Below the pieces are notes generated by a model. The model did no database searches. It saw nothing but the letters and a program-made list of their open reading frames with translations, and had not been told where the DNA came from. A stretch of 60,292 nt of DNA from Prevotella sp. (GTDB lineage Bacteria > Bacteroidota > Bacteroidia > Bacteroidales > Bacteroidaceae), in the NCBI GenBank assembly GCA_017410365.1, contig JAFQQY010000022.1, positions 1 through 60,292 of the forward strand, given 5' to 3'. Position numbers and translations under genes: made by a program. Within the stretch, counting starts at the first letter, position 1. Each line of letters starts with the position of its first letter. This document shows, piece by piece, positions 145-28,252 of this stretch.

Positions 145-657
145 TTAAAATGCATAAATTTCTATTCTTGTTACACTATTAGGGATTGTTACAGACTTTA
201 AATTCAAACAACCAGAAAAAGTTCGTTCTTCTATTATCGACACATGGTCTGGAATAGTTATTGATGCTAACTTGCGGCAACCAAGGAAAGCAAATCTGCC
301 AATACTTGTTACGCTTTTAGGGATTACCACTGATTTCAGATTTTCACACCCTTCGAATGCAGATTCGCCTATCCCAATTATAGTCGTAGGAATTGTTATT
401 TTTTTAATATTATAGCTATGTTTAAAAGCGTCACTACCAATACTAGAAACAATGTATGCCTTTCTCTCAAATACTACACTTGAAGGGATAACATACTCCT
501 TATTCATATATGTACCATTCCTAGTTACTTCTACCGTCAAATCCTTAGCAGATGTAATATTATAATAAATACCATCCACTTCAAAGTCGTATGCACTTAC
601 TGATACGTTGTTCAATAGCACTACTATTGATGTCAGCAATGTTCTAAGTATTTTCAT
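145..657 (-). CDS. Secreted leucine-rich-repeat (BspA/LRR_5-like) protein, short
   Basis: A signal peptide (MKILRTLL...VSVSA) is followed by a short linker and about four LRR_5/BspA-type repeats, each with the pattern IP.SV..IG..AF.GC..L. In Bacteroidales such repeats occur on exported proteins that bind surfaces or other proteins. The ATG at 657 is preferred over a TTG three codons upstream because it begins the signal peptide. The protein stops at ...RIEIYAF, where another GC..L half-repeat would be expected, and no LRR reading continues in the downstream 144 bases, so it is probably 3'-truncated or simply short. It is the last gene of the minus-strand operon, 21 nt after its neighbour. The role in the system is unknown; a ligand-recognition part is an inference. 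Confidence 0.75.
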   Translation of the reverse strand: MKILRTLLTSIVVLLNNVSVSAYDFEVDGIYYNITSAKDLTVEVTRNGTYMNKEYVIPSSVVFERKAYIVSSIGSDAFKHSYNIKKITIPTTIIGIGESAFEGCENLKSVVIPKSVTSIGRFAFLGCRKLASITIPDHVSIIEERTFSGCLNLKSVTIPNSVTRIEIYAF

Positions 658-678
658 AAGTTCCAATTAAACTAATTA

Positions 679-1752
679 TTATTTATCATTGGAGTCTTCA
701 CCTTGGAAATAAACCTCCGCAAGCCCCATATTACGAGCCATTTTATTTGAGAATAGGCCAAAGCAAACCATGGTCATTTGCCTATACCCGTCACTTACAT
801 TGTCAATATTCTTTATTGCATCTTTGGGAGCACTATTTTCTGTATAATCAAATGAGATGTCAGAGTTTGGAAGGGTAAAATGAGCCTTAAAAGTTATAGA
901 AATTCCAAGTAGATGTTTTATAGGAATATTATTATTATCAACATAAGTCCAAAGATGCGGAAGAACATATTTTCCAACTTTGTCTTCTTGACTCTTTATT
1001 GTATAATCAAATCTTAAAACAGGCTGATTATTTTTCTTTGGTTGATCAATATAATGAATGCCATCATCCTTCTCTACTTTTACAAATCCATAAGAGAAAA
1101 TTCTGTTCATACTCTTCTGTACACCATCAATAAGAATCTGCATTAAAGAATTGTTATCACCCTCCGAAAAATTTTCTTTAATAGAAATGACATTGCCTTT
1201 TACCGGCAACGCATCATTATGGCTAAAAGTTTCTATGAATAATCTTACATTCTCATCATATTCAGTATAATCTTTTAATTCAATAGTAGGATTAACCTTT
1301 ACTTTAATCGTGTTTATCCTATTCTGCTTCATATACTGCAGCATTTCTGTCATATATTTGACTGCAACAGGATCTTCCTTACTCTTGTCGTAGTTTGAAT
1401 ATTTCTTTATTTCATTATCCCATCTTGTGTCTATCAGATTGTTAACCTCTTCCACATGTTCTCCTTCAGGAAACTTTTCAATGTAATAGACCATATGATT
1501 CATGTCATTTCCAGAAAGTTCTATTTTCATCCATAATACATCATCCAAATACCGACCTTCTGGATATTCTTCTTCATAGTCTTTTATTAATTGCATTTTC
1601 TCAATACTATCCTTAGTCTTTTCTATTTTACTAAAGGCACGCATTTCCTCAAAATATGGTAGATTAGACACACCAATTATTACCAATAAAACAATAATGG
1701 CTAATACCACTTTAAGCGAATAGGTTCCTAAACCCAATAATTGTTTTTTCAT
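679..1752 (-). CDS. Single-pass membrane protein with TPR-like N-terminal stretch, unknown function
   Basis: About 357 aa from the ATG at 1752 (MKKQLLG); the reading frame opens 10 codons earlier without a better start. One TM helix lies at about residues 12-31 and is followed by a charged helical part with two similar segments (YPEGRYLDDVLW and FPEGEHVEEVNN) that recall TPR/Sel1-like helices in tethered periplasmic proteins. The rest is a mixed alpha/beta domain I do not recognise. The C-terminus carries NMGLAEV ten residues from the end, a motif also near the end of the PrsW-like protein of the same operon. It sits 67 nt after the broken protease gene and 21 nt before the LRR gene. Confidence 0.7.
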   Translation of the reverse strand: MKKQLLGLGTYSLKVVLAIIVLLVIIGVSNLPYFEEMRAFSKIEKTKDSIEKMQLIKDYEEEYPEGRYLDDVLWMKIELSGNDMNHMVYYIEKFPEGEHVEEVNNLIDTRWDNEIKKYSNYDKSKEDPVAVKYMTEMLQYMKQNRINTIKVKVNPTIELKDYTEYDENVRLFIETFSHNDALPVKGNVISIKENFSEGDNNSLMQILIDGVQKSMNRIFSYGFVKVEKDDGIHYIDQPKKNNQPVLRFDYTIKSQEDKVGKYVLPHLWTYVDNNNIPIKHLLGISITFKAHFTLPNSDISFDYTENSAPKDAIKNIDNVSDGYRQMTMVCFGLFSNKMARNMGLAEVYFQGEDSNDK

Positions 1753-1819
1753 AAATACATCCCTTATTCGTGTCGGGCACAACTTCTAACGATAACACAA
1801 TATATTAATTTCCCAATTT

Positions 1820-2886
1820 TCATTTATTGTTATTGTATGTATCCCAGTCTAGGACACATTTATACAAAAGATTTGCCGAGACCCCTTGGTTCATACCTTG
1901 TACGCCATCTAATCCTGTATAACCAGTAGCGTGTATTCCTACCAAGGAACCCTTGTCATTGATTATAGGCGAACCACTCATTCCATTAGCAACAGGAACA
2001 TTATGTCCAAAATTTAACAGTCCACGATACTGAGTAATTATACCATTTTGAATTTGATTTGAAATTTGACCGTATTTAGGCTCTATTGTAGATGCTAGAC
2101 TATTTATTCCATAAGGAAAACCAATAGCATATATAGTTTCACCTACTCTGTTATTGGCAACAGGATCATCTATATCATATTCAAACCATCCATCAATATC
2201 CTTTATAACTTTCGTCACAGAACTAGGAAGTTTCCTATTTTTTGTTTGAAAAATAGTAACATCATCGTTTTCTTTGCTACTTTTTTAGCATAAAAATGCT
2301 CCATTGACAAATCAACTTCAAGCAGATTGCATTCAATACGATGTTCAATATCATCATATCCGCCATTTGGAACAATCCAGACAGAATCAAGACAACCTTT
2401 TATTTTCAGATTATTTGCAATATAAGAATATAGCGTATCGCACGTCGAGTTTGCCTTATTAGTATAGAATTTCCTTAAGATGTTTTCTACATTTTCAATG
2501 TCTTTGTGATTTTCTTAATATAACCAAGGACTAAGCACATGTCTAATTGTGGCTAATATACCATCTTCTCTTATGAAAAAAGCAGTGGCACATCCTTCGT
2601 TGACTCCCCCTTTTATTGTCCAATTGTCTTCACCATTCTCTTCAAATGAGGCAATCAGATTCACAGAATCTTTGTTTTGAAGTTTAAAAAAATGTCTTGT
2701 ATAATCTTCGTCATTTACTATAATCTGATAACCCCACTTAGTGTGAACAAGCCATACCGCAGAACTGTATTCTTTATATACTTTATGCGCATCCCATTTG
2801 CCACATATTATGTCAGTATAGACTATTCCTAAAGCAAAAAAGACAATAGAAATGAAAACTAAGATTACTAAAACATTTCTTTTCAT
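1820..2886 (-). pseudogene. Trypsin-like serine protease, broken by an in-frame stop and a frameshift
   Basis: The 5' part (2886-2515) encodes a TM/signal anchor and the start of a chymotrypsin-fold domain with the catalytic His in ATIRHV (residue 116). It ends at TAA (2517-2515), but the same frame stays open for about 75 more codons (ENHKDIENVENI...). At a run of six A (plus-strand T run 2281-2286) the homologous reading shifts frame into KSSKENDDVTIFQ, which supplies the catalytic Asp, and continues through MSGSPI with the catalytic Ser to 1820. All three triad residues are therefore present but in three pieces. One nonsense codon plus one frameshift argue for a decaying gene, unless one or both are assembly errors. 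An intact trypsin-like paralogue lies at 8367-9425. Confidence 0.8.
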
Positions 2887-2900
2887 ATTGAAAAAATAAG

Positions 2901-3794
2901 CTACTCTCGTTCACCAGATCCATTACAAACATTACACTTAAACTTACCAGCACCTCCGCAGAAAAAACATTGTGTGTAAAACATACCAAAACCAGAGCCT
3001 CCCATACCAAAGCAACTTGTACACTGAACTTCACCATCACCACCACAATTGTTACATTCGCCTCCTTGAGTAACAAAAATTGATGTGCTTATATTATCTT
3101 CGGAAAAAATAATTCTGCCTGTACGGTATTGGCCATTATTCTTTGCACATTTTATCCTTACAGCGTCATTATCACTACTAACAGATAACCATTCAGGTGA
3201 ACTTGTTGACCATTTACATCCATCTGTTTCAATTGAAAGGAATTCTGTTCCACCATATTTATCAAAATTCAAATTTGTTTTACTAAGACTCAATTTTGTA
3301 GCAACACCTAATTGTTTTATAATTGTTTGTACAACCAATTTTCCACTCTGCACAGTTATACAGCCTTCTCTATATTGACCGTCTGTATTAGGACTCACAA
3401 TTATATCAAAATGGTTTTCCGATTCTTCAACTTCTACCCAATCTGGTTTATGATTAATCACCCAAACATAACCATCATAATCAACATCAATCTTGCATTC
3501 GCCGCCAACCTTACCTGAAGCTATAGTATCAGGTTCTAGACGAAGATACGTTGCTGCATTCATCAAATAATTATATAAAGCGACAAAGGCAACGATAACA
3601 ACAACTATTGATATCATAATCTTTTTAAAACATCCTTTACTTTTGGGGTTACTAGAATGTTTCTCACTATTTTCCTTTTCTAGGGTATCTTTATTTGATT
3701 TCTCAGTAATAACCTCGACCAAACGGTTCCCATCTTTTACACAAAAACTTACATTTTCATCATATTGACTATGACATAGAGGGCATTCTTTCAT
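2901..3794 (-). CDS. Zinc-ribbon / TM / two BACON domains / DnaJ-type cysteine-rich C-terminus
   Basis: 297 aa with four recognisable parts. Residues 4-18 form a short zinc ribbon (CPLC...C). Residues 59-77 are a TM helix. Two tandem beta domains follow (about 84-163 and 168-244), each with the BACON pattern W....PDW or W....PEW, then GQYR.G.I and a final Q.G. Residues 247-294 contain four CxxC motifs, three followed by G.G, as in the DnaJ zinc finger. BACON domains are normally extracytoplasmic and DnaJ zinc fingers cytoplasmic, so the topology is odd. Spacing to neighbours is 14 and 18 nt, consistent with the operon. An adaptor or chaperone-like role in the envelope is inferred. Confidence 0.8.
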   Translation of the reverse strand: MKECPLCHSQYDENVSFCVKDGNRLVEVITEKSNKDTLEKENSEKHSSNPKSKGCFKKIMISIVVVIVAFVALYNYLMNAATYLRLEPDTIASGKVGGECKIDVDYDGYVWVINHKPDWVEVEESENHFDIIVSPNTDGQYREGCITVQSGKLVVQTIIKQLGVATKLSLSKTNLNFDKYGGTEFLSIETDGCKWSTSSPEWLSVSSDNDAVRIKCAKNNGQYRTGRIIFSEDNISTSIFVTQGGECNNCGGDGEVQCTSCFGMGGSGFGMFYTQCFFCGGAGKFKCNVCNGSGERE

Positions 3795-3812
3795 AATGAT
3801 TCAATAAAAAGA

Positions 3813-4991
3813 TTATTTAGAACAAGAGGAATTATAACGACTAACTTCAGCAAGTCCCATGTTAAATAGAATTAGAACTACAACCCAAACAAGGACAAAG
3901 AGAATTATATATCCTAAAAAAGGGAATATACCATTACACCACGATGCTAACGGACTATCCCATAGCCCATGAAGCACTACAGGAATAGCAAACAAACGCA
4001 AAAATCTTTGATCCGTCACAATAGAAGACTCAAACCCACCCATTGCTTTTGCAACAATAACTAAAGCCGCTCCAGAAATAGCCGCCCAAGCCACATGACC
4101 ACCAGGGGCTAGAATACCACGAAGAAATATAGTCCGATTTATTGCATCCATCATTTGCTCGCCATCTACATTCTGACCATATGCTGCCGCATATCCTGCA
4201 ATCTGTTGGAATTGCATAAAGGGCTGTAGAGCATAACCGGCAGACTCGAATGCAGCAAATCCAGCGCCTACAGAAGCACCTATTAACAATCCTGTCAAAA
4301 TAGAATGTTTGCCCAGACGCTTAAGGAACATATATACAATTACAGCTTTGCCTATTTCTTCAATTATACCGACCATAAAAGCACCCCAAAAGTCCAGTTC
4401 TGTAACTGAATAGAAAGAGAATAAAAACAATGTTGCCACAAGTGAGGCGCATCCTCCGACAAAGAAAATCTTTATCACACGGAACATACTTATATTTCGC
4501 CAAACATTAGCCTCCATGAAAAGAATCATTGTGGATAAGGGCACAGTAAAAGATCCGATGACAATCATACCTGGCAAAGCATTGGTATTTTCAAATGCAG
4601 AAACACATATCCACAACAAACTAAATGTTATTAGAAACATCATTAGTACACGACTATACAACCATGGATGTGGCCAATCCTTTGATACATCTGAAGGTTG
4701 CGGTGTTGTTGTCTTTGTTCCACATATAAATATATCTTCAGCCTCCTCTGTTGTATGACGTTTAAATACATCAGTGAACAACACTCTCCAATTTAGATTT
4801 GCAGGGCGGTCATTCCCAATATATTCATTTAAAGAATCTATCCAAGAACCATTAGACTTCCTACCTGATAAGTTTTCACTTTCTTGGTACTTTTCCCTTT
4901 GCCCACTTATCACAACTAAAGCATTACCACAATTCCCGCAAAACAAAGCGTCGTTGGAATTCTGCTTTCCACATTTACTACAATAAGCCAT
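3813..4991 (-). CDS. Zinc-ribbon PrsW-type intramembrane protease
   Basis: 392 aa. The N-terminus is a zinc ribbon with Cys4, Cys7, Cys18 and Cys21, then about 85 polar residues, then 8-9 TM helices. The membrane part carries the PrsW signatures: EEIGK at 211-215, a GAGFAAFE segment with Glu249, HVAWAAISG with His299 and VLHGLWD with His341. PrsW proteins are glutamic-type intramembrane endopeptidases; the best known cleaves an anti-sigma factor (site-1 cleavage). The substrate here is unknown; single-pass proteins of the same operon are obvious candidates (inference). The C-terminus carries NMGLAEV nine residues from the end, also found in the protein at 679-1752. Confidence 0.85.
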   Translation of the reverse strand: MAYCSKCGKQNSNDALFCGNCGNALVVISGQREKYQESENLSGRKSNGSWIDSLNEYIGNDRPANLNWRVLFTDVFKRHTTEEAEDIFICGTKTTTPQPSDVSKDWPHPWLYSRVLMMFLITFSLLWICVSAFENTNALPGMIVIGSFTVPLSTMILFMEANVWRNISMFRVIKIFFVGGCASLVATLFLFSFYSVTELDFWGAFMVGIIEEIGKAVIVYMFLKRLGKHSILTGLLIGASVGAGFAAFESAGYALQPFMQFQQIAGYAAAYGQNVDGEQMMDAINRTIFLRGILAPGGHVAWAAISGAALVIVAKAMGGFESSIVTDQRFLRLFAIPVVLHGLWDSPLASWCNGIFPFLGYIILFVLVWVVVLILFNMGLAEVSRYNSSCSK

Positions 4992-5061
4992 ATTAACAGA
5001 ATTAGTTAAATATAATAAAATATTGCTTAATAGGAAATGAGGTAGTGATACTCACTACCGA

Positions 5062-5220
5062 TTATACCCAAGCAAGCAAAGCACTAATGATTATCAATAC
5101 ACCTATCACTTTTATGATTGTTGCAATGATACCATTTAAATTTAGCCATGATGGCACTTTGTCTATAAGCAGCCATCCAATAAGGATACGAACTGCAGTA
5201 CTAATTAATGCACTAATCAT
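5062..5220 (-). CDS. Small two-helix membrane protein (52 aa)
   Basis: A short reading frame from ATG (5220-5218) to TAA (5064-5062) encodes 52 residues: a hydrophobic segment (MISALISTAVRILIGWLL), a short polar turn (IDKVPSWLNLNG) and a second hydrophobic segment (IIATIIKVIGVLIIISALLAWV). It lies 22 nt after the WG-repeat gene and 70 nt before the PrsW-like gene in the same direction, filling what would otherwise be the largest gap in the operon. The AT-rich upstream sequence is like that of its neighbours. No family recognised; a small membrane subunit or regulator of the protease is a guess. Confidence 0.6.
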   Translation of the reverse strand: MISALISTAVRILIGWLLIDKVPSWLNLNGIIATIIKVIGVLIIISALLAWV

Positions 5221-5242
5221 ATTTTTTATTTATTAATAATTA

Positions 5243-6937
5243 TTATTTGTGTTCGTCAATAAATTTACGCCAACCTTCTTTATAAGAAGCCTTAGCAATA
5301 TTAACATATATAGATTTATCTTCAACAATAACTAATATTATAGTTTTACCGTCTTTATCTTCATATAAATAATACTCATTATCTTTTTCTTTGTCTAATA
5401 TCATTTTTCTTTCCATGGATGCATTAATTTTATTAGCGATTTTTCGAGCTATATGTTCCTTTTTAAACTCAACGTATCCACAAAATCTTGTAATATAAGA
5501 ATATTTATTAATATTTTCATAATGAGAGATATTAGAATCAAAATACGCATATAATCCCATTTCATAATTTTGTCCTTCTTGCAACTTCAAATATGCATTT
5601 GATTTCCAAGAGAATTGGCTGGGATTTTCTTTTATAAAAGAAACATCATGAGCCTTACATATTTGTCCATTATCTTTATAAATACAAAGGCCATACTGAT
5701 TATTACCAAAACAAAACGACAACAAAAAATCTGATATCGAATCTTTTGGCACAAAGTGATTCTCTACTTTAAAATCATCATCATTAAAATAATCTGAATA
5801 AATATTATTAATTGATTTCTTGCACAAATCAAAACCTCTATTATTTATCAAATAATCAGACTCATTTGATTTTATAATTACAGGAAAATTAATAAGATTA
5901 TTATAAAACATATCTTCAAAACTCCATCCTGTATATGTTTTCAATAAATTATCTTCTTGATCTATTAATCTTATCTCATCGCTAACATCTTTATGTTTTG
6001 CTAACAATTTATTTCCTAACTTACACAAATATTTGTATTTGGGACGTAATACGATTTCATTTTCATAAGTAAAAGCTCCACATTTTGAATCAGTATTTTG
6101 ATAAATGTAATAATCGTCATATAGTCCTAATATTTCGTTTACTTTCACAGGAACCTTGTTTTCCTCTCTCGTAAGCCAATCCACAATATAAGTGTCTTCC
6201 CCCTTTTTAACAGCGAGTTTACAATTATAAGGATCAAACAGTTCGAGTGTTTCTTCTTTTTCAAGAGTGTACTGACTATCCCCATTCGCATCTATCACAG
6301 ATATCCTATTATATTGTGAAGTATCAGCAACACAACTGTCATTTAGTGCATCATTTGATTTATTATTGTGTTGTGATAAAACCAGCGCATATCCATTAAC
6401 AAAGTGTGATCCATCTATATATCTTTGCGAATGGGTCTTATCTCCAAATTTGTCAACATAAGCAACTGTATTATCAACAAGTGTCACCTTTAAAAAACCA
6501 TCTGAAAAGAAATCACATGATTTCACCTCAACTCCATCAATCTCATTTAATACAAATTTCTTATTGCCATTTTTATCAAAAACAGTAATATGTTCACCTA
6601 CAAAACAAAGAGGAATAAGCCCATTTTGAATTATGCCAACAGATGCACAGTTATCCGAGAAATCAACCTCGAAATAACTTCCATCTTCATTTAATGTACA
6701 TAAATTATATAAACCATCTGATGATTTCTCAATAAAAAAACCGTCAATAATTGGTGATGGTCTATTTAAAAATGCATTTTCTAATATTATTTTACCTTTT
6801 CTATCTACGAAACTCCAATTGCCGTCCTTTTCCAATTGAGCAGGCAAATGAGTAACATATATTCCGCGTTCTTTTTCATCGCATCCACACAAAAGCAATG
6901 ACATAACTAAACACCATAAATAAAATATCTTTTTCAT
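5243..6937 (-). CDS. WG-repeat lipoprotein
   Basis: 564 aa with a lipoprotein signal (MKKIFYLWCLVMSLLLCGC, Cys19). The N-terminal half has repeats of the WG/KWG type (for example NWSFVDRKGKIIL, HITVFDKNGNKKF, VAYVDKFGDKTH), which form beta-propeller-like arrays in secreted Bacteroidetes proteins. The C-terminal third is a separate alpha/beta domain ending YINVAKASYKEGWRKFIDEHK, not recognised. It lies 4 nt downstream of the small membrane protein at 6942-7337. Probably anchored in the inner or outer membrane facing the periplasm; no catalytic motif seen. Confidence 0.75.
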   Translation of the reverse strand: MKKIFYLWCLVMSLLLCGCDEKERGIYVTHLPAQLEKDGNWSFVDRKGKIILENAFLNRPSPIIDGFFIEKSSDGLYNLCTLNEDGSYFEVDFSDNCASVGIIQNGLIPLCFVGEHITVFDKNGNKKFVLNEIDGVEVKSCDFFSDGFLKVTLVDNTVAYVDKFGDKTHSQRYIDGSHFVNGYALVLSQHNNKSNDALNDSCVADTSQYNRISVIDANGDSQYTLEKEETLELFDPYNCKLAVKKGEDTYIVDWLTREENKVPVKVNEILGLYDDYYIYQNTDSKCGAFTYENEIVLRPKYKYLCKLGNKLLAKHKDVSDEIRLIDQEDNLLKTYTGWSFEDMFYNNLINFPVIIKSNESDYLINNRGFDLCKKSINNIYSDYFNDDDFKVENHFVPKDSISDFLLSFCFGNNQYGLCIYKDNGQICKAHDVSFIKENPSQFSWKSNAYLKLQEGQNYEMGLYAYFDSNISHYENINKYSYITRFCGYVEFKKEHIARKIANKINASMERKMILDKEKDNEYYLYEDKDGKTIILVIVEDKSIYVNIAKASYKEGWRKFIDEHK

Positions 6938-6941
6938 ACTT

Positions 6942-7337
6942 TTAGATATTAAATAACCAATAACCTATAATCGGATGTTCATTAGCCATAAAAATAACAT
7001 AAATAACGAACAAAAGGAACACACTAAAAAGTATGTATGTAAATATACCCCAGCGATGCGAAGTTTCTTTTTGTATAATTACTCGCTCTTTAGGTTCAAT
7101 TTTATGGCTAATTGCTTTTGACTTTGCCACAATAAAAAAGTCATCAAACGGAATGTCCTTCTCAATTATTTTTGCACTTTTCTTTTTCTCAAGTATAATA
7201 AGGTTAAGAATATAAGACGATATGTTTAGCTGGCGACAAGCCCGTAACAAATCGTTATATTCTTTATCTATCTTTCCTGACTCTACAGACAACTCCGTCA
7301 AATAGATTAACTCATGGAACGTAAGGTTTTCTTTCAT
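6942..7337 (-). CDS. Small C-terminally anchored membrane protein, unknown
   Basis: 131 aa: a helical, charged N-terminal part of about 95 residues, then one TM helix (about 98-117) and a short tail (EHPIIGYWLFNI). There is no signal peptide, so the N-terminal domain is likely cytoplasmic. The start codon overlaps the stop of the upstream gene by four bases (ATGA), typical of translational coupling. Family not recognised. The position between a soluble unknown and a lipoprotein suggests a membrane tether. Confidence 0.65.
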   Translation of the reverse strand: MKENLTFHELIYLTELSVESGKIDKEYNDLLRACRQLNISSYILNLIILEKKKSAKIIEKDIPFDDFFIVAKSKAISHKIEPKERVIIQKETSHRWGIFTYILFSVFLLFVIYVIFMANEHPIIGYWLFNI

Positions 7338-8377
7338 TTATATATGAATTTTATAACAGGTTTCTCAATCAACAACCATTCCTTAATGTCACTTTTATTT
7401 CTTAATAGTTTTAAGTACCCCTTTCTTTCTGTTTTAATCTGTAATAAAGATGATATGTCACCTAATTTATTTTCCCTTATACACCACATCAGTTCTATAT
7501 TTAAGATAAATTTGTGATATTGGACATTACCATCAGACCCTAGAAAATTTTTATAATTCTCATTTACCTCTAATGTGGCAAATTGTTCACCTTCTACTTC
7601 CTTGATAAGGAAAAGTTTATTATGTCCAGTCCCATCCTTTTTTCTCCATGTAAATTTCTTTTCTTGCTGATTTGCCTGAGATAAAGTCTGGATTGGCGAG
7701 TTTACGTAGTAAATATTTTCTGCAGTATCTGTTGAGATAGATTGTTCTACATCTTTAACGCTTGCTGATTTTATTTTTTGGGGATTTGACTCTTTCTCGT
7801 CATATAAATAAGTAAATCCAGAATCGTGAATCTCATTTACCAACGAGGGACTAAATATTTCTACCTTTTCTATTTTACCTAATCTTAAGATACTTTTAAC
7901 ATTTGGTATTCTCTTTGTATCACGATAAGCTTCGAAATCAATATAATATGAATTATGCCAGATTCTATCTAAAGCTTTCAACTCATCACCATGTTTAAGG
8001 CCCGACAAATCTGTATTTAGAACATAAAACTTGTAAGAACCTAATGTCAACATATCAATAAATCGCCTCCCTTTAACTTCATGAACAAAAGTCAACTTTA
8101 TATGCTGACCCTCATTCAATTTATCTAAAGAAAAACTGCTATACAACAAATCAACAGAAGGTAAGGTTTTGATATTATTAGCAACTTGTGTTAAAAACTG
8201 GGTTGATTGCTCTTGTGATAAACCATACCGTTTCCCTTCTTTTTCAACAATTCTGATAATATCATCAGAAATGTGAATACGATTGATTATGTATTCGTCC
8301 CTTTCAGGATTATACTCAACCGTATTCACTATTTGTTTGATTATGAATTTTTCAAACTTGCTTGAATCAATATTCAT
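7334..8377 (-). CDS. Soluble protein of unknown function
   Basis: 347 aa without signal peptide or TM helix. The N-terminal third is helical (EYNPERDEYIINRIHISDDIIRIVEKEG...). The middle and C-terminal parts are beta-rich with segments such as FTWRKKDGTGHNKLFLIKEV. No catalytic motif seen and no family recognised. It overlaps the upstream protease gene by 11 nt and the downstream gene by 4 nt, so it is firmly part of the operon. Codon use is AT-rich like its neighbours. Confidence 0.65.
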   Translation of the reverse strand: MNIDSSKFEKFIIKQIVNTVEYNPERDEYIINRIHISDDIIRIVEKEGKRYGLSQEQSTQFLTQVANNIKTLPSVDLLYSSFSLDKLNEGQHIKLTFVHEVKGRRFIDMLTLGSYKFYVLNTDLSGLKHGDELKALDRIWHNSYYIDFEAYRDTKRIPNVKSILRLGKIEKVEIFSPSLVNEIHDSGFTYLYDEKESNPQKIKSASVKDVEQSISTDTAENIYYVNSPIQTLSQANQQEKKFTWRKKDGTGHNKLFLIKEVEGEQFATLEVNENYKNFLGSDGNVQYHKFILNIELMWCIRENKLGDISSLLQIKTERKGYLKLLRNKSDIKEWLLIEKPVIKFIYK

Positions 8378-10084: not shown

Positions 10085-10096
10085 AATGAGAAGATT

Positions 10097-11275
10097 TTAT
10101 CTGTCAGACAGTTTTACCTTAAGTTTGTTATTCCCATCAACGATGAAGTGATTATCATTGTCCTTTAACAATCTTCCAGGGTTAATCGGAGATACTTTTG
10201 AAACCATTCCATTTATACTTGAATCATATTGTAAACAGTTTTCATGGAATGGCAACTGGTTTGCCAATGCAGTCTGGGCATCAATATCATCTATTATTGT
10301 ATAATAATAATTACCCTTTTCATAATATATTCTGAATAATGCCTTAGGATTCTCTTTAATCAAAAAAGAATTGCTATCGGGCTCATACATTACATCAGTA
10401 GTCTCAAATTTATACTCATCAACAGCATGCTTTACCTTGTTGTCTACTTTTTCTTTAATAGTGGCTTTTTGTTGAACTCCAGTAGTGGCATAGTTTTTTT
10501 CATTCAGTATATCAGAAAACTTACCCTCAATATTTTTTATTCGATTTTCAAGTTGTATATACTTATCCGGTTCGTTAGATAAAACAATAGGTGTTTCCCC
10601 CTTTTTATTTGTTTCAACTTGTTTCCTAAGATCATTTATTTCCTTACCCAAATTTATAAGTTGCTTAAATAAATAAACAAAACCAATAACAAATATGAGC
10701 AACAACCCTATCATACCATAAGGCAAATAATTATTCCAATTACCTGATTTTTCTATATCTTTATCACTGAGATGAAATCCGCAGTTGCCACAAATGCTAT
10801 CATTTGAAACAATACGGCTACTACATTGGGGACAAAGAAGAGTGTCTGGAATTGTAGATTTCACTACATCTTTTTTCTTTACTATTTTTACTATATACAA
10901 TGAATCTTTTGAAGGGCACCAACCTTGTCCGGGGGTTGGGTCGTAATAAGCTTTCTTTAGCTCAATAATTGAGGTGTCTTTAGCAAGTGTATCATATTCT
11001 ATTTTTAATATAACACAACCAATATCATCTTTATCAATTAAAATTCCTTTCTCATTATTGTTAGGTTTAACTTGATGTTTTGTGAAGTTTTCATTACCTG
11101 TGCCACCATATTGAACATTGTCTTTTTTGTTACCATAAAGCGTGTCAAGTTCGTTTCCTATCTTTATTGTAATGTCTCCAGTAACATCTTTTACTAATGT
11201 CTTGACAACATTAGCTCCAAACGTAACACTTGTAAAGAATAAACTTAACAAGCAAGCAATAATTTTTATTCTCAT
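10097..11275 (-). CDS. Exported zinc-ribbon protein with TM helix, coiled coil and C-terminal beta domain
   Basis: 392 aa. Residues 1-20 are a signal peptide; a periplasmic part of about 120 residues follows, then a zinc ribbon at 148-165 (CPQC...CGNC), a TM helix at about 184-203, a coiled coil at 204-260 and a C-terminal domain (about 290-390) similar to that of the next gene. Zinc ribbon on the outside and coiled coil on the inside is an unusual topology but follows from signal peptide plus one TM. It lies 55 nt after the actin-like gene; that gap holds a perfect palindrome. A transmembrane linker between envelope and cytoplasmic parts is inferred. Confidence 0.7.
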   Translation of the reverse strand: MRIKIIACLLSLFFTSVTFGANVVKTLVKDVTGDITIKIGNELDTLYGNKKDNVQYGGTGNENFTKHQVKPNNNEKGILIDKDDIGCVILKIEYDTLAKDTSIIELKKAYYDPTPGQGWCPSKDSLYIVKIVKKKDVVKSTIPDTLLCPQCSSRIVSNDSICGNCGFHLSDKDIEKSGNWNNYLPYGMIGLLLIFVIGFVYLFKQLINLGKEINDLRKQVETNKKGETPIVLSNEPDKYIQLENRIKNIEGKFSDILNEKNYATTGVQQKATIKEKVDNKVKHAVDEYKFETTDVMYEPDSNSFLIKENPKALFRIYYEKGNYYYTIIDDIDAQTALANQLPFHENCLQYDSSINGMVSKVSPINPGRLLKDNDNHFIVDGNNKLKVKLSDR

Positions 11276-11291
11276 AATATTTGTGTTAAAC

Positions 11292-11317
11292 GAGGATGCA
11301 CTCGCGAGTGCATCCTC
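11292..11317. promoter_or_regulatory. Perfect 26-bp palindrome between actin-like and zinc-ribbon genes
   Basis: Two 13-base arms (GAGGATGCACTCG and its exact complement) abut with no spacer. In mRNA it would fold into a stable hairpin with a minimal loop. It sits in the 55-nt gap of the operon. There is no T-run on the minus strand right after it, so a strong terminator is unlikely; an attenuator, an mRNA-processing/stability element or a site for a dimeric DNA-binding protein all fit. Confidence 0.6.
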
Positions 11318-11330
11318 AAGTTATTAGATA

Positions 11331-14300
11331 CTATTTGTATTGCGCATACTTTTTAGAAATTTTCACTAATGAATTCTTCAAACACCAGAAGAATAATGAT
11401 TCCTGTACATTGATATCATTAAATTGTTCCGGAACATTAGCAAATATTCTAAAGCTTTCTTCTGCACTGTTTTTCAAGTCATTAAGAAGCTCTTTTGAGA
11501 TTGTAAGATTGAACTTACTGAACAAAAGATTAGTGAAATCCTTACTAGATAAAGAATCAACAAATACTCCAAAATTGTCAATAGCAGCTTTTCTTACATT
11601 GTCTTTCCTAATGTCTGCATAAGTTAATGTTTGTTCTGTATCAAAACCATAATCACAAATAGAAACCAAACTATCAGCTGGCAACTTAAATTGATCATCA
11701 ATATTCAATCCTGCCAATACTCCTTTGGCTGTAATTTCTTTCACACCAACACCTCTTGCCTGAACTATTTCAAAGGCTTTACTTGCTTGCTTACCTGTAT
11801 ATTGTTCAAGCAGATATTTGGTAAGTTCCTTAACTACATTGGTATTGCTGGAAATCATATTTATATATTTACTTCCCATACCAGTAAAAGACAACTTCGC
11901 AGGTATCTCCATGTCGAGTTTTTTTATTATGCGGGCAACATTATATATCAAGGCTGCATAATGTATAAATACAAGGGAGTAAAGATTGCGCTGACTCTTT
12001 ATCTTTTCTGAAGTTTGGAACACCTTGTCATGTTTGAAGAGATAACTCATCACATCTGCCGAAGAGTTGCTGATGCTTTCAAGTGCATTTAGCGGTCTTA
12101 AAATCTCATTTGGATAAGTTGCACTAGCTGCATTAATAGCCTGTGTTACATATTGCACAAATCCATTACCATCATTACCAACAGTTGAAATTCTTTTACC
12201 ATCTCCCCATAGGTCGTCTCCAGCGAACATTGATGAAGCATAATGAGCACTTGTTATAGTACCACCGCCATCTTTATTTACAAATAGCAAGTCAGAAGTT
12301 CCACCTCCAATATCCACATTTAGATAACTTGAACCGCCTATCTGGTTGGCCATACAATTATAAGGTGCAACAGATTCACTACATCCCGAATCATGTTTTA
12401 ATTTACATTGTATTCCTAACTCATCCTTTGCCCATCTCCACAAACTAAATAGTGCATCAGGGTTTTTCATTGCTTGAGGATATGTGATATATACATCAAA
12501 ATTCTGTCCTCCTCCATTCATGAAAGATTCGTTCTTTAGCATCCATAAAGTCTGCAAGAAATAATATTTCACTCTATTAGTGTGATGAGCATCGCCCGGC
12601 TTCTCTTCAAGAAGCCATTTCAGACCGGTACGGTATTTTTGCTCTCTTATAGCAACAGGCTCATGCATCATATTGAAGCCAATAGATATGTTTCCAAACA
12701 AATCAGGTTGAACCGTTTCAAAGTTTGACACCTCGCAAACTGCTGTTCTTATAGGATATGATACTTTATAATCTTCTCCCAATCCTAGTGGAGCAAATTC
12801 TCGAGACAAATAGTCATCCATTGCTCTTAAACTTGTTCCTATAGTAGAACCGAGGAATACTGTTTGCTGATCATGAGCATCTATTTCCAATGTTTCAGCA
12901 TTTGGTTGATTTGTGGTAACATGAGAAATATATGTATTTGATGTACCAAAGTCTACTGCAAAACTATAGTGATTGTCATCCCTATCTTGGACTTCTTGCA
13001 TTAAAGGTAATATTATTCCCTTGTTCTCCCCAACAAATAATTCAACAATATCAAAACTATTCTTTAGCAAATAATATTCTGTTTTGCTAACAAACCTAGT
13101 ACCATTTGTCCTAGTCTTAGATGTTTTGTCTATTGCTCTGTCTAAAGAACTAACCTTGAAAAAGTCCAATCTATTTGCATCACCAACATTGACAACACTA
13201 TACCTATTTAACGTATCGTCATCACATTTGTAGAATGGGTAGAAACCCAGCAACACACTATCAGCAGAAATAATATCTTCACCAGAATATTCTTTTTTCA
13301 ACTCTATTGTTTTATGTGTTGCGTCTTTAATTGGCACATTTATTGTTACTGTAACTCTGTTCCCATTGATAGTGACTTCAACAAGTTTCTTGTTTGTTCC
13401 ATTACATGCAACTCTTGTTATATCATCAATATCGAAATATCTAAAGAAATTTCGTTTAAGAGGTAACAGATAATTAGATTCTCCATTGAATGCAGTCAGG
13501 AATGATGTGGAATTTATTGGATACGACAATTTTATAATCTTATCTTCCAAGAAATCACTCCAAATTAAGAAAGGATGTTGTATTCCCATTCCACCTGGCG
13601 CCAATCGTTCATGCATCTCAGTTGTTCTAACTTCTGCCTCGTTTATCTTGCAGGTTTGTGGATTCCAAACCGACCTACCAATGTATGTAACCCCGGTAAG
13701 ACCATTGTCGTTCAGAACCAACGGCGCTGAAATTGTTTGATTACTTCCGTCCCTAGCTACATATTGCTGATATCTGGTTATTGGTGTATTTATCTCATAA
13801 CCACTAGCTTGAATTGTCATCTTTGGATAGCGAAGCGGTAGGCTGCCACATACAACTTGATTTCCTTCAATGTCTGTTATCGCATTTTGGAATGCTTCAT
13901 TAAATAATGCTGGATTTCCACCCATTGTCAGAATATTAGGGTCCTTAAAGGTTTCTGCATTCCACATAGTCGCTACATAACTATTGAAATCTGTTGCTTG
14001 ATTTCCCATAGTTGCGTTATGTGACATATACAAGGAATAAACCATGCTCTTGAAAGTATCATCTCTTGCAGACAAAGGCTCTATACTATCAGTAGTAAAC
14101 ATCGGTCTGCCATTAAGACGATTAAAATTGAAACCGTTTTCTCTAGCTATACGTCCCCAATTAGGTGATGTAAAGGCTAAAGTATAAGGGGATGTTCCAC
14201 CGATAAGAAACTCCTGAGGTTGAGTACACTTTGGCGTAGAATCTTTCCAAAAGAACAGAAAAATATCACTTAATAAAGGATAGTTCCTTATTTCGTCTTC

Positions 14301-14711
14301 TAAGACCTCTGCCAATTTCGCATGTTCAGAATGACCATCTGCTCTCAAGTTATTAATCTGCTGTTGGGCATTCCAATGCTTAATGACAAGTTTTGAATCG
14401 CCACCATGCTGGAATACAAACTCCAACATATCAAGACATTCTGATACCAATATTGTATCTGAATTAACTGTTGTCAATTTTGCGAAATTTGCACCGTTCA
14501 AAGTTTGAAATGCACCATTAAATAGAAAAATACGTGCAAAGAACGACGGAATTGATGTTCCCATTTTGTTGTTACCCAATCCTAATGGGATATTACTCAA
14601 AAGATTACCTGATATATGCGCTGTCTGTGACCAACCATCCATCGTAGCTGCTGATATTGGAGCTGGATCTGTTGGTTTTTTAGGTTCATGTATTCTAAAT
14701 GCGTATGCCAT
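11331..14711 (-). CDS. Giant protein with C-terminal actin/Hsp70-like ATPase domain (SrfB-like architecture)
   Basis: 1126 aa. Residues 1 to about 580 have no family I recognise. Residues about 583-1126 carry the actin/Hsp70/sugar-kinase ATPase signatures in order: phosphate-1 at 584-594 (FAVDFGTSNTY), phosphate-2 at 798-810 (NVDIGGGTSDLLF) and adenosine motif at 939-951 (KLSFTGMGSKYIN). The enzyme should bind and hydrolyse ATP, perhaps as a filament or a conformational switch. Length and layout recall the SrfB virulence-factor family, but that is from memory of architecture only. No signal peptide or TM helix: cytoplasmic. The start at 14711 lies 12 nt after the tubulin-like gene, suggesting coupled synthesis of the two NTPases. 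Confidence 0.85.
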   Translation of the reverse strand: MAYAFRIHEPKKPTDPAPISAATMDGWSQTAHISGNLLSNIPLGLGNNKMGTSIPSFFARIFLFNGAFQTLNGANFAKLTTVNSDTILVSECLDMLEFVFQHGGDSKLVIKHWNAQQQINNLRADGHSEHAKLAEVLEDEIRNYPLLSDIFLFFWKDSTPKCTQPQEFLIGGTSPYTLAFTSPNWGRIARENGFNFNRLNGRPMFTTDSIEPLSARDDTFKSMVYSLYMSHNATMGNQATDFNSYVATMWNAETFKDPNILTMGGNPALFNEAFQNAITDIEGNQVVCGSLPLRYPKMTIQASGYEINTPITRYQQYVARDGSNQTISAPLVLNDNGLTGVTYIGRSVWNPQTCKINEAEVRTTEMHERLAPGGMGIQHPFLIWSDFLEDKIIKLSYPINSTSFLTAFNGESNYLLPLKRNFFRYFDIDDITRVACNGTNKKLVEVTINGNRVTVTINVPIKDATHKTIELKKEYSGEDIISADSVLLGFYPFYKCDDDTLNRYSVVNVGDANRLDFFKVSSLDRAIDKTSKTRTNGTRFVSKTEYYLLKNSFDIVELFVGENKGIILPLMQEVQDRDDNHYSFAVDFGTSNTYISHVTTNQPNAETLEIDAHDQQTVFLGSTIGTSLRAMDDYLSREFAPLGLGEDYKVSYPIRTAVCEVSNFETVQPDLFGNISIGFNMMHEPVAIREQKYRTGLKWLLEEKPGDAHHTNRVKYYFLQTLWMLKNESFMNGGGQNFDVYITYPQAMKNPDALFSLWRWAKDELGIQCKLKHDSGCSESVAPYNCMANQIGGSSYLNVDIGGGTSDLLFVNKDGGGTITSAHYASSMFAGDDLWGDGKRISTVGNDGNGFVQYVTQAINAASATYPNEILRPLNALESISNSSADVMSYLFKHDKVFQTSEKIKSQRNLYSLVFIHYAALIYNVARIIKKLDMEIPAKLSFTGMGSKYINMISSNTNVVKELTKYLLEQYTGKQASKAFEIVQARGVGVKEITAKGVLAGLNIDDQFKLPADSLVSICDYGFDTEQTLTYADIRKDNVRKAAIDNFGVFVDSLSSKDFTNLLFSKFNLTISKELLNDLKNSAEESFRIFANVPEQFNDINVQESLFFWCLKNSLVKISKKYAQYK

Positions 14712-14723
14712 AATAATAGTCTA

Positions 14724-16262
14724 TTATTTTACTTGATTATACTTTGCTTTTGTTACATCTCTTAATACTTTAAAGAACGCCTGATCCGTATAATTCCCAA
14801 GATTCTTGCTCTTTTCATTTATCTCTTCGGCTAGTTTGTCATCTTTAATAGGATTTGGTTTTGGATTTGGCACTTGTATTGTCTTGTGTGACAATATTTC
14901 TTTCATCTCATTTTCTTTATCCATTCTATACGGATAAAGTTTGTGAGTATGAGTGTTCAATTCTTTAAGCCATGGATAAAATCCCCAAGCATCCTTGCTT
15001 GTACCTCCTGCATCAAGGAATTTGTCCAGCATATCATATACACCTTTCTGTAATTTGTTAGACAAATCAAAGCGAGCACCTTTGTAATAAGCTGTATCAC
15101 TGCTTATCTTTTTGCGATCACCACAAATTACATCACGATAGTATTTCATCGCAATAGCAAAGGCAGAAATATTGTCCATAAACTTATTATGCGAAGAAGA
15201 ACAGAAATCTGTCAACTGAATACTTGTATCTACCTTTGCGTCTGATACACTAAATTCATAAGCATTATGAACATGATTGTCAAGTGGCCTTAATAAGAAA
15301 TCAATAATAGCACTAGCCGCCACAAATTCTACTACATGTGCATCATTCTTTTGGCGAGACTCACCTTCATTGTATTCATAAGCATCATGATGCTCATCAC
15401 CAATGTAATATAATGCATTTACTTTGCTATTTATACCTTCTGGTGTTGCATAAAAACTTAATGCTGCGCGAGTTTTGGCATTGAAAGAGGAAGCATCTAT
15501 TGCACCTGTATCTCCCTTGTTTGGATCAAATTGTTGTAAATCAAAATATGGGAGAACCAACGCAGAACCTATAACGGCAGGATTTAATGTCGCTCTACCG
15601 CTTGTCCTAATTGCGTTTACTATTTCTGGGAATCCAGAAGCACCTGTACCACCAAAAATTGAACTGACAATGAAGACCTTATCTTGTGCTGCGTTGAAAG
15701 TGTTGCTGAAATGTATAAACTCCGGACTTCTCTTTAAATCATGAAAAACTACTGAGCCGATGTTAGGATTTCCCTTGAAACCCTTTGCCATATCTAATTG
15801 CAATTCTGCATTTTTACTGGTTTCATCAGAACCATCATATAATGCATAAAGAAGATCTTTGCTTATACGCACATTAGCATTAGTGTCCAATGCTTGCATA
15901 TTTAGGTAATCAGCAAACTTTATTGAATGACCGCCTGGTCCGAAATTGAATTCGAAATCTCTTAAATCGTCACCCTCAGCAGCAACGCCTGCTTGCCTCA
16001 ATGGGGTTAAACGAGTCATGAAAAAATTATCAGTATAAGCTGTATTTGCAGAATCTGGATATAGACTTCTATGAATTTCTGAATATCCACTTAATGCTTT
16101 TATAGCTCTTGTCTTATCACCATTTGACAAGTCGTAATCTATAATAATCGGTACAATTTCAGTAGAACTGTCAATACCATCAATACCAGATGCCAGCATC
16201 ATTGTGAGCGAACGGACAACACGTGCCCCTGTTCCTCCTATTGCAAATAAAAATAGTCTCAT
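14724..16262 (-). CDS. Tubulin/FtsZ-like GTPase
   Basis: 512 aa, cytoplasmic. The N-terminus MRLFLFAIGGTGARVV is the first beta strand and G-box of tubulin-like proteins, followed by a strand ending in acidic residues (IVPIIIDYDLSN). The tubulin signature for GTP phosphate binding appears as SSIFGGTGASG at residues 200-210. The pattern matches the broad Tubulin_like group (distinct from FtsZ) often found beside vWA genes. The C-terminal half is helical and not recognised. It lies 19 nt after the membrane-protein gene and 12 nt before the actin-like ATPase gene. GTP-driven polymerisation is inferred from the fold only. Confidence 0.85.
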   Translation of the reverse strand: MRLFLFAIGGTGARVVRSLTMMLASGIDGIDSSTEIVPIIIDYDLSNGDKTRAIKALSGYSEIHRSLYPDSANTAYTDNFFMTRLTPLRQAGVAAEGDDLRDFEFNFGPGGHSIKFADYLNMQALDTNANVRISKDLLYALYDGSDETSKNAELQLDMAKGFKGNPNIGSVVFHDLKRSPEFIHFSNTFNAAQDKVFIVSSIFGGTGASGFPEIVNAIRTSGRATLNPAVIGSALVLPYFDLQQFDPNKGDTGAIDASSFNAKTRAALSFYATPEGINSKVNALYYIGDEHHDAYEYNEGESRQKNDAHVVEFVAASAIIDFLLRPLDNHVHNAYEFSVSDAKVDTSIQLTDFCSSSHNKFMDNISAFAIAMKYYRDVICGDRKKISSDTAYYKGARFDLSNKLQKGVYDMLDKFLDAGGTSKDAWGFYPWLKELNTHTHKLYPYRMDKENEMKEILSHKTIQVPNPKPNPIKDDKLAEEINEKSKNLGNYTDQAFFKVLRDVTKAKYNQVK

Positions 16263-16281
16263 AATATTTTAATCTAAATTA

Positions 16282-16857
16282 TTAAAATGGAATTGCAGAA
16301 CCATCTCGTGTATGTTTTTTAAAAAGTAATGAAAATATAAAGAACAATATTACAGAATAAACTGCATTAGTTATTGCCATTTCCATAGGTAAATCTTCCC
16401 CCATTACAGTGCTATCATCTTCTTTTGATATAAATTGGTCTCTAAATTCTGTTGCAACTGCTGTTATCTCATCTCGTTGGTCTGTATCTTCTGTCAAATC
16501 TAGTTTGCTTTCTTCTATGGCATAAGCCTTAGCAAATATACCAGTTGCATCTTCTGCTACTTCTGCATTATTACCAACAATCATAGGTATTGTAGTAAAC
16601 ATGGTTGAAACAAACACTATTACAAGGACAATAGCCCATACCCAACGTTTCGCCAAACTAAATACGAAATTGCATATACCAAAATAGAAGATTAAGGCTA
16701 TAACCAAAGCAATGCCTATTCCTGCTAAAAAAATATTACTACACACAGGCGTATCAATAAAATATCCTGTATAATAATCCACGAATTCGGAGTTTTCACC
16801 TCCATTAATTAATTTGTCACCAAGAGAGGTGCACCAGCTGTAAAGTTTTGTAAACAT
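16282..16857 (-). CDS. Three-helix inner-membrane protein, unknown
   Basis: 191 aa from the ATG at 16857 (MFTKLYSW); an upstream in-frame start at 16902 would overlap the preceding gene by 32 nt and adds a poor N-terminus, so it is not used. TM helices: IFLAGIGIALVIALIFYFGI, then WVWAIVLVIVFVSTMF, then AVYSVILFFIFSLLF near the C-terminus. Between helices 2 and 3 lies an acidic loop of about 75 residues. A membrane docking partner for the tubulin-like protein encoded 19 nt downstream is an inference. Family not recognised. Confidence 0.7.
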   Translation of the reverse strand: MFTKLYSWCTSLGDKLINGGENSEFVDYYTGYFIDTPVCSNIFLAGIGIALVIALIFYFGICNFVFSLAKRWVWAIVLVIVFVSTMFTTIPMIVGNNAEVAEDATGIFAKAYAIEESKLDLTEDTDQRDEITAVATEFRDQFISKEDDSTVMGEDLPMEMAITNAVYSVILFFIFSLLFKKHTRDGSAIPF

Positions 16858-16870
16858 AATTAATAGTATT

Positions 16871-18148
16871 TTATTTAATTTTAAAGATTTGTTTCTTAAC
16901 AATATTATTTTTATTATTTAATGCGGTAAAACCATGCGCAAGATACATTAGATTAAAAGTCTTGTCTATTTCTAATGGCTTTGTCAATATATCGTAGTCA
17001 TTGTCATCTGACCAAGTTTCAATCCATGTTGGTGCTTCATATTTAAGTTCAAATGTCAAATCGCAATTTTTAACTGCACTTGATTTGATACAAATACTGC
17101 ATATTTTTTTCTCGTTGTTGAGCGAAATTGTGTAAGAATCCTTGTCCAAAACTTTAGACTCACTTTTGCTTTTATACTTAACACTCAATTCTATGTTTTT
17201 CTTGAGATACTCTTCTGTTTGCATATAATCGGGCAGTTTGTTTAGATTTGTAGATTTCAATTCGACAGAGTCACACCCACTCTTTATGATATATGTATCT
17301 TTAGATTCGGGTTTTAATCCATTACCATATGCCAAACCTATTTCATTATATGAGTTACAATCTCCAAACATAGCAATATTTTCAAATGGAGTAATAATAT
17401 TATTATTTGCTTGCTTTTCTTCTTGTATTTTCTTTTCAAGATATTTAATATATTTCCATTTCCCCATTGCTATAAGATAGAAAGGTCTTTCTTTGTTTAT
17501 TATTTTTCTAACAGCATTATCATAACAACTATACTTACCATTAAATGTTGCTTTGTAACGAATCAAAAGAGCACTATACAATGTTTGGTCTTCAAGTCCT
17601 TTGTATAAGTTGTTTGCCATAGTTTGGCGCTCTTTTATATTATAAGTTCTATTTGGAGAATTTGCAATTTGTTCATTAGATCCACTTAGAATAGCATCAG
17701 TCACTAAAAAACATACATCACTTCCTTCTTTGATATGTCTTTTCATTGATTTAATCATTGCTATTATATCAGATTCTTGACTCCATGGTATTTGCCGTTT
17801 ATTTAATTTTTTACTGAAATCGTTATGATCAATAGCTTGATTTTCTTCATTACCATAAAAGTAAACTGTCACAGTTTGGGGTATATTCATAAAATACGAA
17901 ACAACTCCTGAGAATCTTGAATCGTTACTGCTATCAAGATATCCTTTCATACTATATGAGGCATCAAATAGCATAGTGGCTATCTTGGGTTCTATTGGCG
18001 CATCATCTGTTTCTTTTTCTTGTTTAACAGAATCAACTTTAACAGAATCAACTTTAGTGGAGTCTGTAGTGGTAGATTTATCTTTTTTATCATCACAGCT
18101 CAATATTACAAATAGAAACAAAACTAAGGGTACAAAAAACTTTTTCAT
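16871..18148 (-). CDS. vWA-domain lipoprotein
   Basis: 425 aa. Lipoprotein signal with Cys18 (VILSC), then a low-complexity charged linker (STKVDSVKVDSVKQ). A von Willebrand A-type domain starts at about residue 55: the strand ATMLFDASYSM carries the DxSxS metal site (Asp62, Ser64, Ser66), and DVCFLVTDAILSG supplies the second Asp (151). The last 180 residues are beta-rich. vWA domains mediate metal-dependent protein binding. First gene of the operon. The upstream 65 nt contain TATTTTTG (18213-18220) that could be a -7 box but no TTTG at the right distance; it coincides with the U-tract of the RNA terminator upstream, so read-through supply is also possible. Confidence 0.82.
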   Translation of the reverse strand: MKKFFVPLVLFLFVILSCDDKKDKSTTTDSTKVDSVKVDSVKQEKETDDAPIEPKIATMLFDASYSMKGYLDSSNDSRFSGVVSYFMNIPQTVTVYFYGNEENQAIDHNDFSKKLNKRQIPWSQESDIIAMIKSMKRHIKEGSDVCFLVTDAILSGSNEQIANSPNRTYNIKERQTMANNLYKGLEDQTLYSALLIRYKATFNGKYSCYDNAVRKIINKERPFYLIAMGKWKYIKYLEKKIQEEKQANNNIITPFENIAMFGDCNSYNEIGLAYGNGLKPESKDTYIIKSGCDSVELKSTNLNKLPDYMQTEEYLKKNIELSVKYKSKSESKVLDKDSYTISLNNEKKICSICIKSSAVKNCDLTFELKYEAPTWIETWSDDNDYDILTKPLEIDKTFNLMYLAHGFTALNNKNNIVKKQIFKIK

Positions 18149-22699: not shown

Positions 22700-22712
22700 T
22701 TATCATGAGGCT

Positions 22713-28250: not shown

Positions 28251-28252
28251 AG

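Follow-up and report, generated by a model that had tools for sequence, protein, structure and literature searches.

An operon of Prevotella sp. encoding a tubulin-like GTPase and an Hsp70/actin-like ATPase, and a possible trans-envelope machine of Bacteroidota

The operon and its four-gene core

The DNA analysed here (the window, 60,292 nucleotides [nt]) is an entire contig, JAFQQY010000022.1, of a Prevotella sp. (Bacteroidales) genome of 3.28 Mb in 55 contigs that is 89.4% complete. Its left end is occupied by an operon on the minus strand, which is read from position 18148 to 145 and runs up to the contig end. The first four genes form its core and encode, in the order of transcription, a vWA-like lipoprotein, a small membrane protein, a tubulin-like GTPase and an ATPase of the ASKHA (Hsp70/actin) superfamily. 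An earlier note, made from the sequence alone, had described sixteen genes on one strand with gaps of at most 70 nt. The single strand was confirmed; we count 17 open reading frames (ORFs), or 16 genes if the two pieces of a broken protease gene are taken as one. Neighbouring genes are spaced by −32 to +70 nt as described, and the exception, 296 nt between 2218 and 2515, falls within that broken gene. The GC content is 0.332 in the operon versus 0.445 across 19301–60292, which suggests that the operon was probably acquired. The ATPase is absent from the only other genome of the same genus in our phylum sample (G684). Below, the genes of 101 further loci and of the window are referred to by single-linkage families, F0 to F26.

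The tubulin-like protein (F0) matched Tubulin_2 (PF13809) with 26 bits (E 7e-6), just short of the cut-off of 27, and among members of its family 39/43 matched PF13809 and 36/43 matched PF00091 at E 0.01. An AlphaFold2 model based on 43 sequences reached a predicted local distance difference test (pLDDT) of 87.2 and a predicted template modelling score (pTM) of 0.92, and the top 15 Foldseek matches in the PDB were all FtsZ, CetZ, PhuZ or tubulins. The scores themselves were weak: the best E was 1.6e-3, with none at 0.001, the TM-score by target was 0.32–0.39 across the best ten matches, and a profile of 21 sequences reached CetZ at just E 0.015. The glycine motif GGTG is conserved in 42/43 members (one gap) and FGGTG in 43/43. 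Judged by the model and these motifs, the 512-amino acid (aa) protein belongs to the FtsZ/tubulin superfamily, with the GTPase-domain fold and the T1 and T4 glycine loops present; its GTPase half is recognisable and its C-terminal half appears non-standard.

The same genome encodes a second, canonical Tubulin_2 protein, 1033 aa long (L165:9677-12778; PF13809, 161 bits), that also has a GYF_2 domain; on the same strand its gene is followed by one for a MORN-repeat protein and by further small genes. In a profile comparison of this protein with the window tubulin, the T4 region alone aligned (P 0.0022).

The ATPase (F1) had no match in a Pfam scan, HSP70 included. A profile of 16 sequences found MreB at 6.1e-7. 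The AlphaFold2 model from 42 sequences (pLDDT 86.6, pTM 0.77) was closest in Foldseek to DnaK (E 2e-9), followed by MreB (1.3e-8), with modest TM-scores; the alignments with DnaK are long, yet the TM-score by query is about 0.2. Asp587, Lys698, Glu779, Asp800 and Asp807, which we take to be the Hsp70 catalytic set, are identical in 42/42 family members. With the modelled fold and the phosphate-1, phosphate-2 and adenosine motifs present, the 1126-aa protein is assigned to the ASKHA superfamily, where the model places it equally near Hsp70 and MreB. The folds that the earlier note had proposed for these two neighbouring nucleoside triphosphatases (NTPases) were thus borne out by AlphaFold2 and Foldseek, for the tubulin at the weak scores given above.

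The first gene of the core had been noted as a vWA lipoprotein (F2). The aligned lipobox Cys is present in 41/43 members; the family also has a MIDAS-like motif, [DE]xSxS, and a separate Asp kept in 43/43. When hhalign was run against three vWA proteins encoded in this genome, it gave P 5e-5 (probability 67), versus P 0.023, 0.32 and 0.7 in three unrelated control comparisons. None of the 43 members matched vWA Pfam models at E 0.01, and a PDB profile search found no vWA structure. We rate the vWA identity, based on motif and hhalign, as moderate. The small membrane protein (F3) has an uncertain start codon (TTG); an internal ATG is possible.

Conservation of the core and a motor pair in relatives

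Co-conservation was assessed in several samples. In 22 neighbourhoods, namely 20 of the 21 places found in the order sample outside the window's own genome plus two records from a plasmid collection, iterated profiles found the ATPase in 18, the vWA-like gene in 11 and a related protease in 6. From a scan of GTDB contigs, the best 80 of at least 568 confirmed tubulin relatives were used. The ORF caller recovered the tubulin in 79 of them (not L081), and in these 79 loci the ATPase gene lay within four genes every time, and was the next gene in 72; the vWA-like gene was found in 77. These rates are biased upwards, because the 80 loci are the nearest relatives. Over all 102 loci the tubulin was found in 102, the ATPase in at least 92, the vWA-like gene in at least 83, F3 in at least 81, F4 in at least 68, F5 in at least 42, F6 in at least 38 and the trypsin-like gene in at least 22, which are lower bounds, given truncated contigs and operon calls. 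Other genera show the core genes in this same order.

Whole genomes of single families were sampled separately. In family f130 at E 1e-20, the ATPase was found in 47/121 genomes and the tubulin in 48/121; 47 genomes hold both, and G925 has the tubulin alone (Fisher p 5e-33, ignoring relatedness). In family f129, the ATPase was found in 122/150 genomes; a pair of matches turned up in two of these, in one case owing to a split gene. We guess f129 and f130 to be Hymenobacteraceae and Spirosomataceae. The earlier note had proposed looking for a vWA, membrane protein, tubulin and actin core across Bacteroidales. Its co-conservation holds there and beyond, and both folds are supported by structure prediction, the two points on which that note had staked its model.

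The flanking genes differ in how far they are kept. In a group of Fibrella, Larkinella and Fibrisoma (9 loci), two downstream flank genes were matched at all 8 other loci; in Hymenobacter (7 loci), matches at 4/6 others were seen for some of the flank genes; in Pontibacter (11 loci), flank genes were matched at no more than 2/10 others, some of these being operon genes missed by the ORF caller. None of 50,697 phage records matched a Pontibacter tubulin query, and 6 of 72,556 plasmid records matched the window tubulin: five from cyanobacteria and one Prevotella record of 1.77 Mb. On these counts we rejected the idea that the gene set is carried mainly by phages or plasmids. We read the gene set as vertically kept in some families and acquired in Bacteroidales.

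Several loci call for separate mention. The core is also present on three contigs that bear a viral label; on two of them, IMG/VR contigs L163 and L164, the genes for the vWA-like, membrane, tubulin, ATPase, ZorA-like and ZorB-like proteins lie in this order, and these contigs may be host DNA. A metagenome-assembled genome (MAG) labelled Oscillibacter (L097) is near-identical in the tree to a Bacteroidales locus (L101), and one labelled Williamsia (L103) falls among loci of Flavobacteriaceae (support 0.931); both labels are probably due to mis-binning.

In many relatives, two further genes (F5 and F6) resemble the motor of the Zorya system. In PADLOC, F5 of one relative matched ZorA (6.6e-7), while for F6 three relatives gave ZorB matches at 4e-10 to 6e-14; Pfam gave OmpA, MotB_plug and MotA_ExbB only, below their cut-offs. 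The F6 profile found the ZorB structure 8vvn_B at 1.5e-14, an entry we name from a report on Zorya structures (PMC11890865; this and the papers cited below are drawn on from part of their text). For F5, we relied only on matches to MotA/ZorA structures that cover the transmembrane region, namely 8vvi_F (7.2e-5), 8vvn_C (1.6e-4) and 8qyd_A (2.9e-4). The MotB-type Asp of F6 is kept in 16/16 sequences that have the position, and F5 carries Ser or Thr at three transmembrane positions in 25/25, 24/25 and 25/25 sequences. Most PDB matches of F5, including the top two (4tql and 9ugr), look like chance matches of helical bundles or coiled coils, and its PADLOC matches to LmuB (8e-7), Leo and Jet were set aside, in our judgement, as coiled-coil similarity.

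In f130, F6 was found in 13/121 genomes, all 13 with the core, and 34 genomes have the core without F6; of the 14 positions with an F6 gene, 13 are at most 7 kb downstream from an ATPase gene, and the remaining one is on a separate contig. No ZorA or ZorB was found among the window ORFs. A motor pair elsewhere in the genome was looked for as well: at E 0.01 there was no ZorB-like match in the assembly (89.4% complete), with 5/5 other genomes positive as a control. In a concatenated tree of 88 taxa, the window belongs to a 24-tip clade (support 1.0) that has no F5/F6 pair. Other parts of the tree, for example the Spirosoma group, are without the pair too, so that it must have come or gone at least twice. 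The MotA/B-type ZorA/ZorB pair is a frequent partner in relatives that the earlier note could not see, and the window lacks it.

Accessory genes

The remaining features are listed with the core in the table. The gene order of the window, from the vWA-like gene through the membrane protein, tubulin, ATPase and two F4 genes to the trypsin-like gene, is the same as in L048 and its kin.

Features of the window operon in the order of transcription, with the evidence for each assignment
Feature	Position	Strand	Evidence
vWA-like lipoprotein, 425 aa (F2)	16871..18148	-	lipobox, MIDAS-like motif, hhalign
Small membrane protein, three hydrophobic helices (F3)	16282..16902	-	hydropathy
Tubulin/FtsZ-superfamily GTPase (predicted), 512 aa (F0)	14724..16262	-	PF13809 near cut-off, AlphaFold2 and Foldseek, glycine motifs
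ASKHA (Hsp70/actin, Hsp70/MreB-fold) ATPase (predicted), 1126 aa, ~580-aa N-terminal extension (F1)	11331..14711	-	AlphaFold2 and Foldseek, profile, invariant residues
F4a: N-terminal hydrophobic stretch, zinc ribbon, one transmembrane segment (residues 189-207), F4 C-terminal domain	10097..11275	-	F4 profile 7.8e-12, hydropathy
F4b: F4-family protein without predicted transmembrane segment	9422..10084	-	F4 profile 1.7e-19, hydropathy
Trypsin-like serine protease, lipoprotein by eye (F7)	8367..9425	-	PF13365 1.7e-18, F7 profile 1.2e-98
347 aa, no assigned function (F26)	7334..8377	-	family also in L045 and L046
Small protein, C-terminal transmembrane segment	6942..7337	-	hydropathy
Lipoprotein by eye, possibly WG-repeat-like	5243..6937	-	PF14903 at E 0.98 only
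52-aa hydrophobic peptide (F21)	5062..5220	-	family also in L047 and L049
Zinc ribbon and PrsW-type intramembrane protease (F25)	3813..4991	-	PF13367 1.4e-21, PF13240 8.7e-7
Transmembrane protein, BACON repeats, Cys-rich ends	2901..3794	-	PF13004 1.5e-13
Broken trypsin-like gene, pieces 2515-2886 and 1820-2218	1820..2886	-	PF13365 1.1e-9 on second piece, none on first
Transmembrane protein	679..1782	-	hydropathy; no Pfam match
BspA-type leucine-rich repeat (LRR) protein near contig end	145..666	-	PF13306 5.9e-31

Both genes directly after the ATPase match the F4 profile, and one internal transmembrane segment is predicted in 41/74 F4 proteins. The zinc ribbons and the PrsW-like protease that the earlier note had proposed were both recovered. 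It had also named lipoprotein-anchored trypsin-like proteases. One of these, F7, is intact and shows a His/Asp/Ser triad by eye; the second is disrupted by a stop and a frame change, which leaves one intact trypsin-like lipoprotein in the operon. The proteolytic part of its model is an accessory: a trypsin-like gene occurs anywhere in the locus in 18 of the 79 nearest tubulin loci, and the PrsW family in three loci, the window included.

Among the relatives, L050 has a WG-repeat protein in its operon (PF14903, 6e-7). Upstream of the core, four loci carry a TolC/HlyD-type pair (F16 and F19), as in L050:4289-7384 with its outer-membrane efflux (PF02321) and HlyD-type genes. In one Bacteroidales subclade, a large protein (F10, 8 loci; for example L048:1851-5093) is encoded upstream of the vWA-like gene; the example is weakly HSP70-like (PF00012, E 0.0077, below the cut-off). 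Next to the operon, the stretch 20162–37871 of the window is higher in GC and contains hydrolase and glycoside-hydrolase-like genes, resembling by eye a region for polysaccharide use.

Proposed role and comparison with known systems

From the gene set, the folds, the invariant nucleotide-site residues, the co-conservation and the motor homology of the relatives, all of which were computed directly, we tentatively favour the reading that the window operon is an acquired, motorless variant of a conserved trans-envelope machine of Bacteroidota, likely one for envelope upkeep or repair. The vWA-like lipoprotein on the periplasmic side, together with the membrane proteins F3 and F4, would report the state of the envelope to the cytoplasm, where two nucleotide switches, the tubulin-like GTPase and the Hsp70/actin-like ATPase, would receive the signal. 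The GTPase would probably oligomerise at the membrane, and the large ATPase may remodel the tubulin assembly or a client of it. Many relatives would have this assembly powered or sensed by an ion-driven ZorA/ZorB-like stator with a probable anchor in peptidoglycan. Since the window has no stator and carries a trypsin-like lipoprotein in its operon, proteolysis may supply the output there. Complex formation, topology and the direction of signalling are what hydropathy, the lipobox and gene order suggest, and both the role of the machine and filament formation are our proposals. A comparable coupling of a vWA protein to an ion-driven motor has been described for vWA force transducers beside TolQ-like motors (PMC12204202); their vWA proteins are membrane-tethered, unlike the lipoprotein here, and tubulin is never named in the available part of that text.

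Several observations weigh against this reading. The vWA assignment, made from the motif and hhalign, is moderate, and the first MIDAS residue is Glu in 31/43 members and Asp in 12/43. No tubulin T7 catalytic loop was recognised by eye in the window protein, and 30/74 F4 proteins have no internal transmembrane segment. The distribution is patchy: the tubulin was found in 18/295 genomes of the order sample at E 1e-5 and the ATPase in 10/395 of the phylum sample (two partial or weak), own genome counted in both. The ATPase is missing in 4/22 neighbourhoods (L025, L038, L039 and L040, with L038 at a contig end). The cyanobacterial copies found are all on plasmids, the plasmid collection alone having been searched for them, and these copies and the acquired look of the window copy also suit an accessory or defence role.

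Anti-phage defence of a Zorya-like kind, in which phage attachment or DNA entry is sensed on the envelope side and activates the NTPases as effectors, is the strongest of the alternatives, though we consider it unlikely. The motor pair of relatives is nearest to ZorA/ZorB in PADLOC and among Zorya structures and shares the conserved Asp, the window protease matches RT-Protease_XI of PADLOC at 2.1e-12, and the operon is an AT-rich island with a patchy distribution in Bacteroidales. Unlike Zorya, the window itself lacks ZorA and ZorB. PADLOC models for ZorC/D/E or type III partners had no match in ten of the 17 window ORFs or in the ten proteins of relatives scanned, six of them from L073. The rarity in phage and plasmid records is a further point against defence, albeit one that defence could accommodate. 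In favour of the conflict view, tubulin and HSP70 modules have been put forward as multimeric conflict effectors by Kaur et al. 2020 (PMC7159879), and their GAP1-N2 GTPase-centric systems resemble the window in combining tubulin-domain and vWA proteins in one theme and HSP70 in another. These themes are non-overlapping, however, the tubulin theme is limited to Firmicutes and Actinobacteria in the portion of the paper available, and the systems are built around GTPase and GAP1 genes, which were not found in the window: its 17 ORFs have no GTPase-family Pfam match besides the tubulin, no GAP1-specific model having been searched. The conflict role that the earlier note had listed fits poorly with an ATPase carried by 122/150 genomes of f129, nearly always once, and with flanks conserved in some genera. 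This carriage favours a housekeeping envelope machine over phage defence, as does vertical keeping in some families with acquisition in Bacteroidales.

It seems rather improbable that the operon encodes a chaperone-like machine, with the ATPase as its Hsp70, for the assembly or export of lipoproteins of the surface or of large proteins of the envelope. DnaK is the best Foldseek match, the operon also encodes lipoproteins, a protease and BACON and LRR proteins, and some loci have the TolC/HlyD-type pair upstream. An Hsp70 substrate-binding domain was not established in the ATPase, however, that pair is limited to four loci, and no family-wide secretion signature was seen.

A true cytoskeletal pair, in which tubulin-like and actin-like filaments shape or bud membrane as Makarova and Koonin 2010 proposed for FtsZl1 (PMC2875224), has little probability in our view. 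The superfamily folds of both NTPases agree with it, as does the vWA neighbour: FtsZl1 (Tubulin_2) proteins are encoded with vWA proteins, membrane proteins, a GTPase and sometimes OmpA-domain proteins. With Bacteroides caccae and cyanobacteria represented in their family, it may already cover some relatives of the present subfamily. Tubulin_2 proteins have been called sparse and divergent (PMC9871819). The window tubulin lies below the PF13809 cut-off and departs from the FtsZl1 layout of ~1000 aa with an extended coiled coil and a helical C-terminal region, being about 500 aa long with a longest model helix of 25 residues. FtsZl1 also differs in the constant ASKHA ATPase partner and the ZorA-like partner of relatives seen here; in the available text of PMC2875224, actin appears as background only, and Hsp70, MotA and MotB are not mentioned. 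Against a cytoskeletal pair, the C-terminal half of the tubulin is unlike FtsZ/tubulin and its TM-scores are weak, and the ATPase has a ~580-aa extension and is as near Hsp70 as MreB. The earlier note's model of filaments coupled through the membrane to a periplasmic layer keeps its trans-envelope layout, as predicted from lipobox and hydropathy, and its cytomotive filaments stay a proposal.

That the operon is a decaying passenger without present function is equally improbable: one protease gene is broken, the LRR gene lies near the contig end and GC is low, yet reading frames are intact in all core genes, in both F4 genes and in the other protease gene, and the window tubulin and ATPase retain the invariant residues.

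The components touch published themes, FtsZl1 with vWA and OmpA proteins on the one hand and Zorya on the other. No paper describing this gene combination was found in a search without preprints and with few subscription journals; PMC12904381 was set aside as a related report, as tubulin appears in the available text in a reference title only. It is possible, though we would not yet lean on it, that these loci represent an unnamed class of envelope machine, in which one conserved operon combines three energy converters, a tubulin-like GTPase, an Hsp70/actin-like ATPase and an optional ion-driven ZorAB-type stator, beneath a sensor lipoprotein, and a protease module replaces the stator in some lineages. 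A constant ATPase partner, and often an ion-driven motor, can now be assigned to an orphan FtsZ/tubulin branch that is related to the FtsZl1 proteins of 2010. The function of these tubulins can be tested in cultured Pontibacter, Hymenobacter and Spirosoma. If our favoured reading is true, a ZorAB-type motor would be found in a possibly housekeeping setting, which bears on the origin of Zorya.

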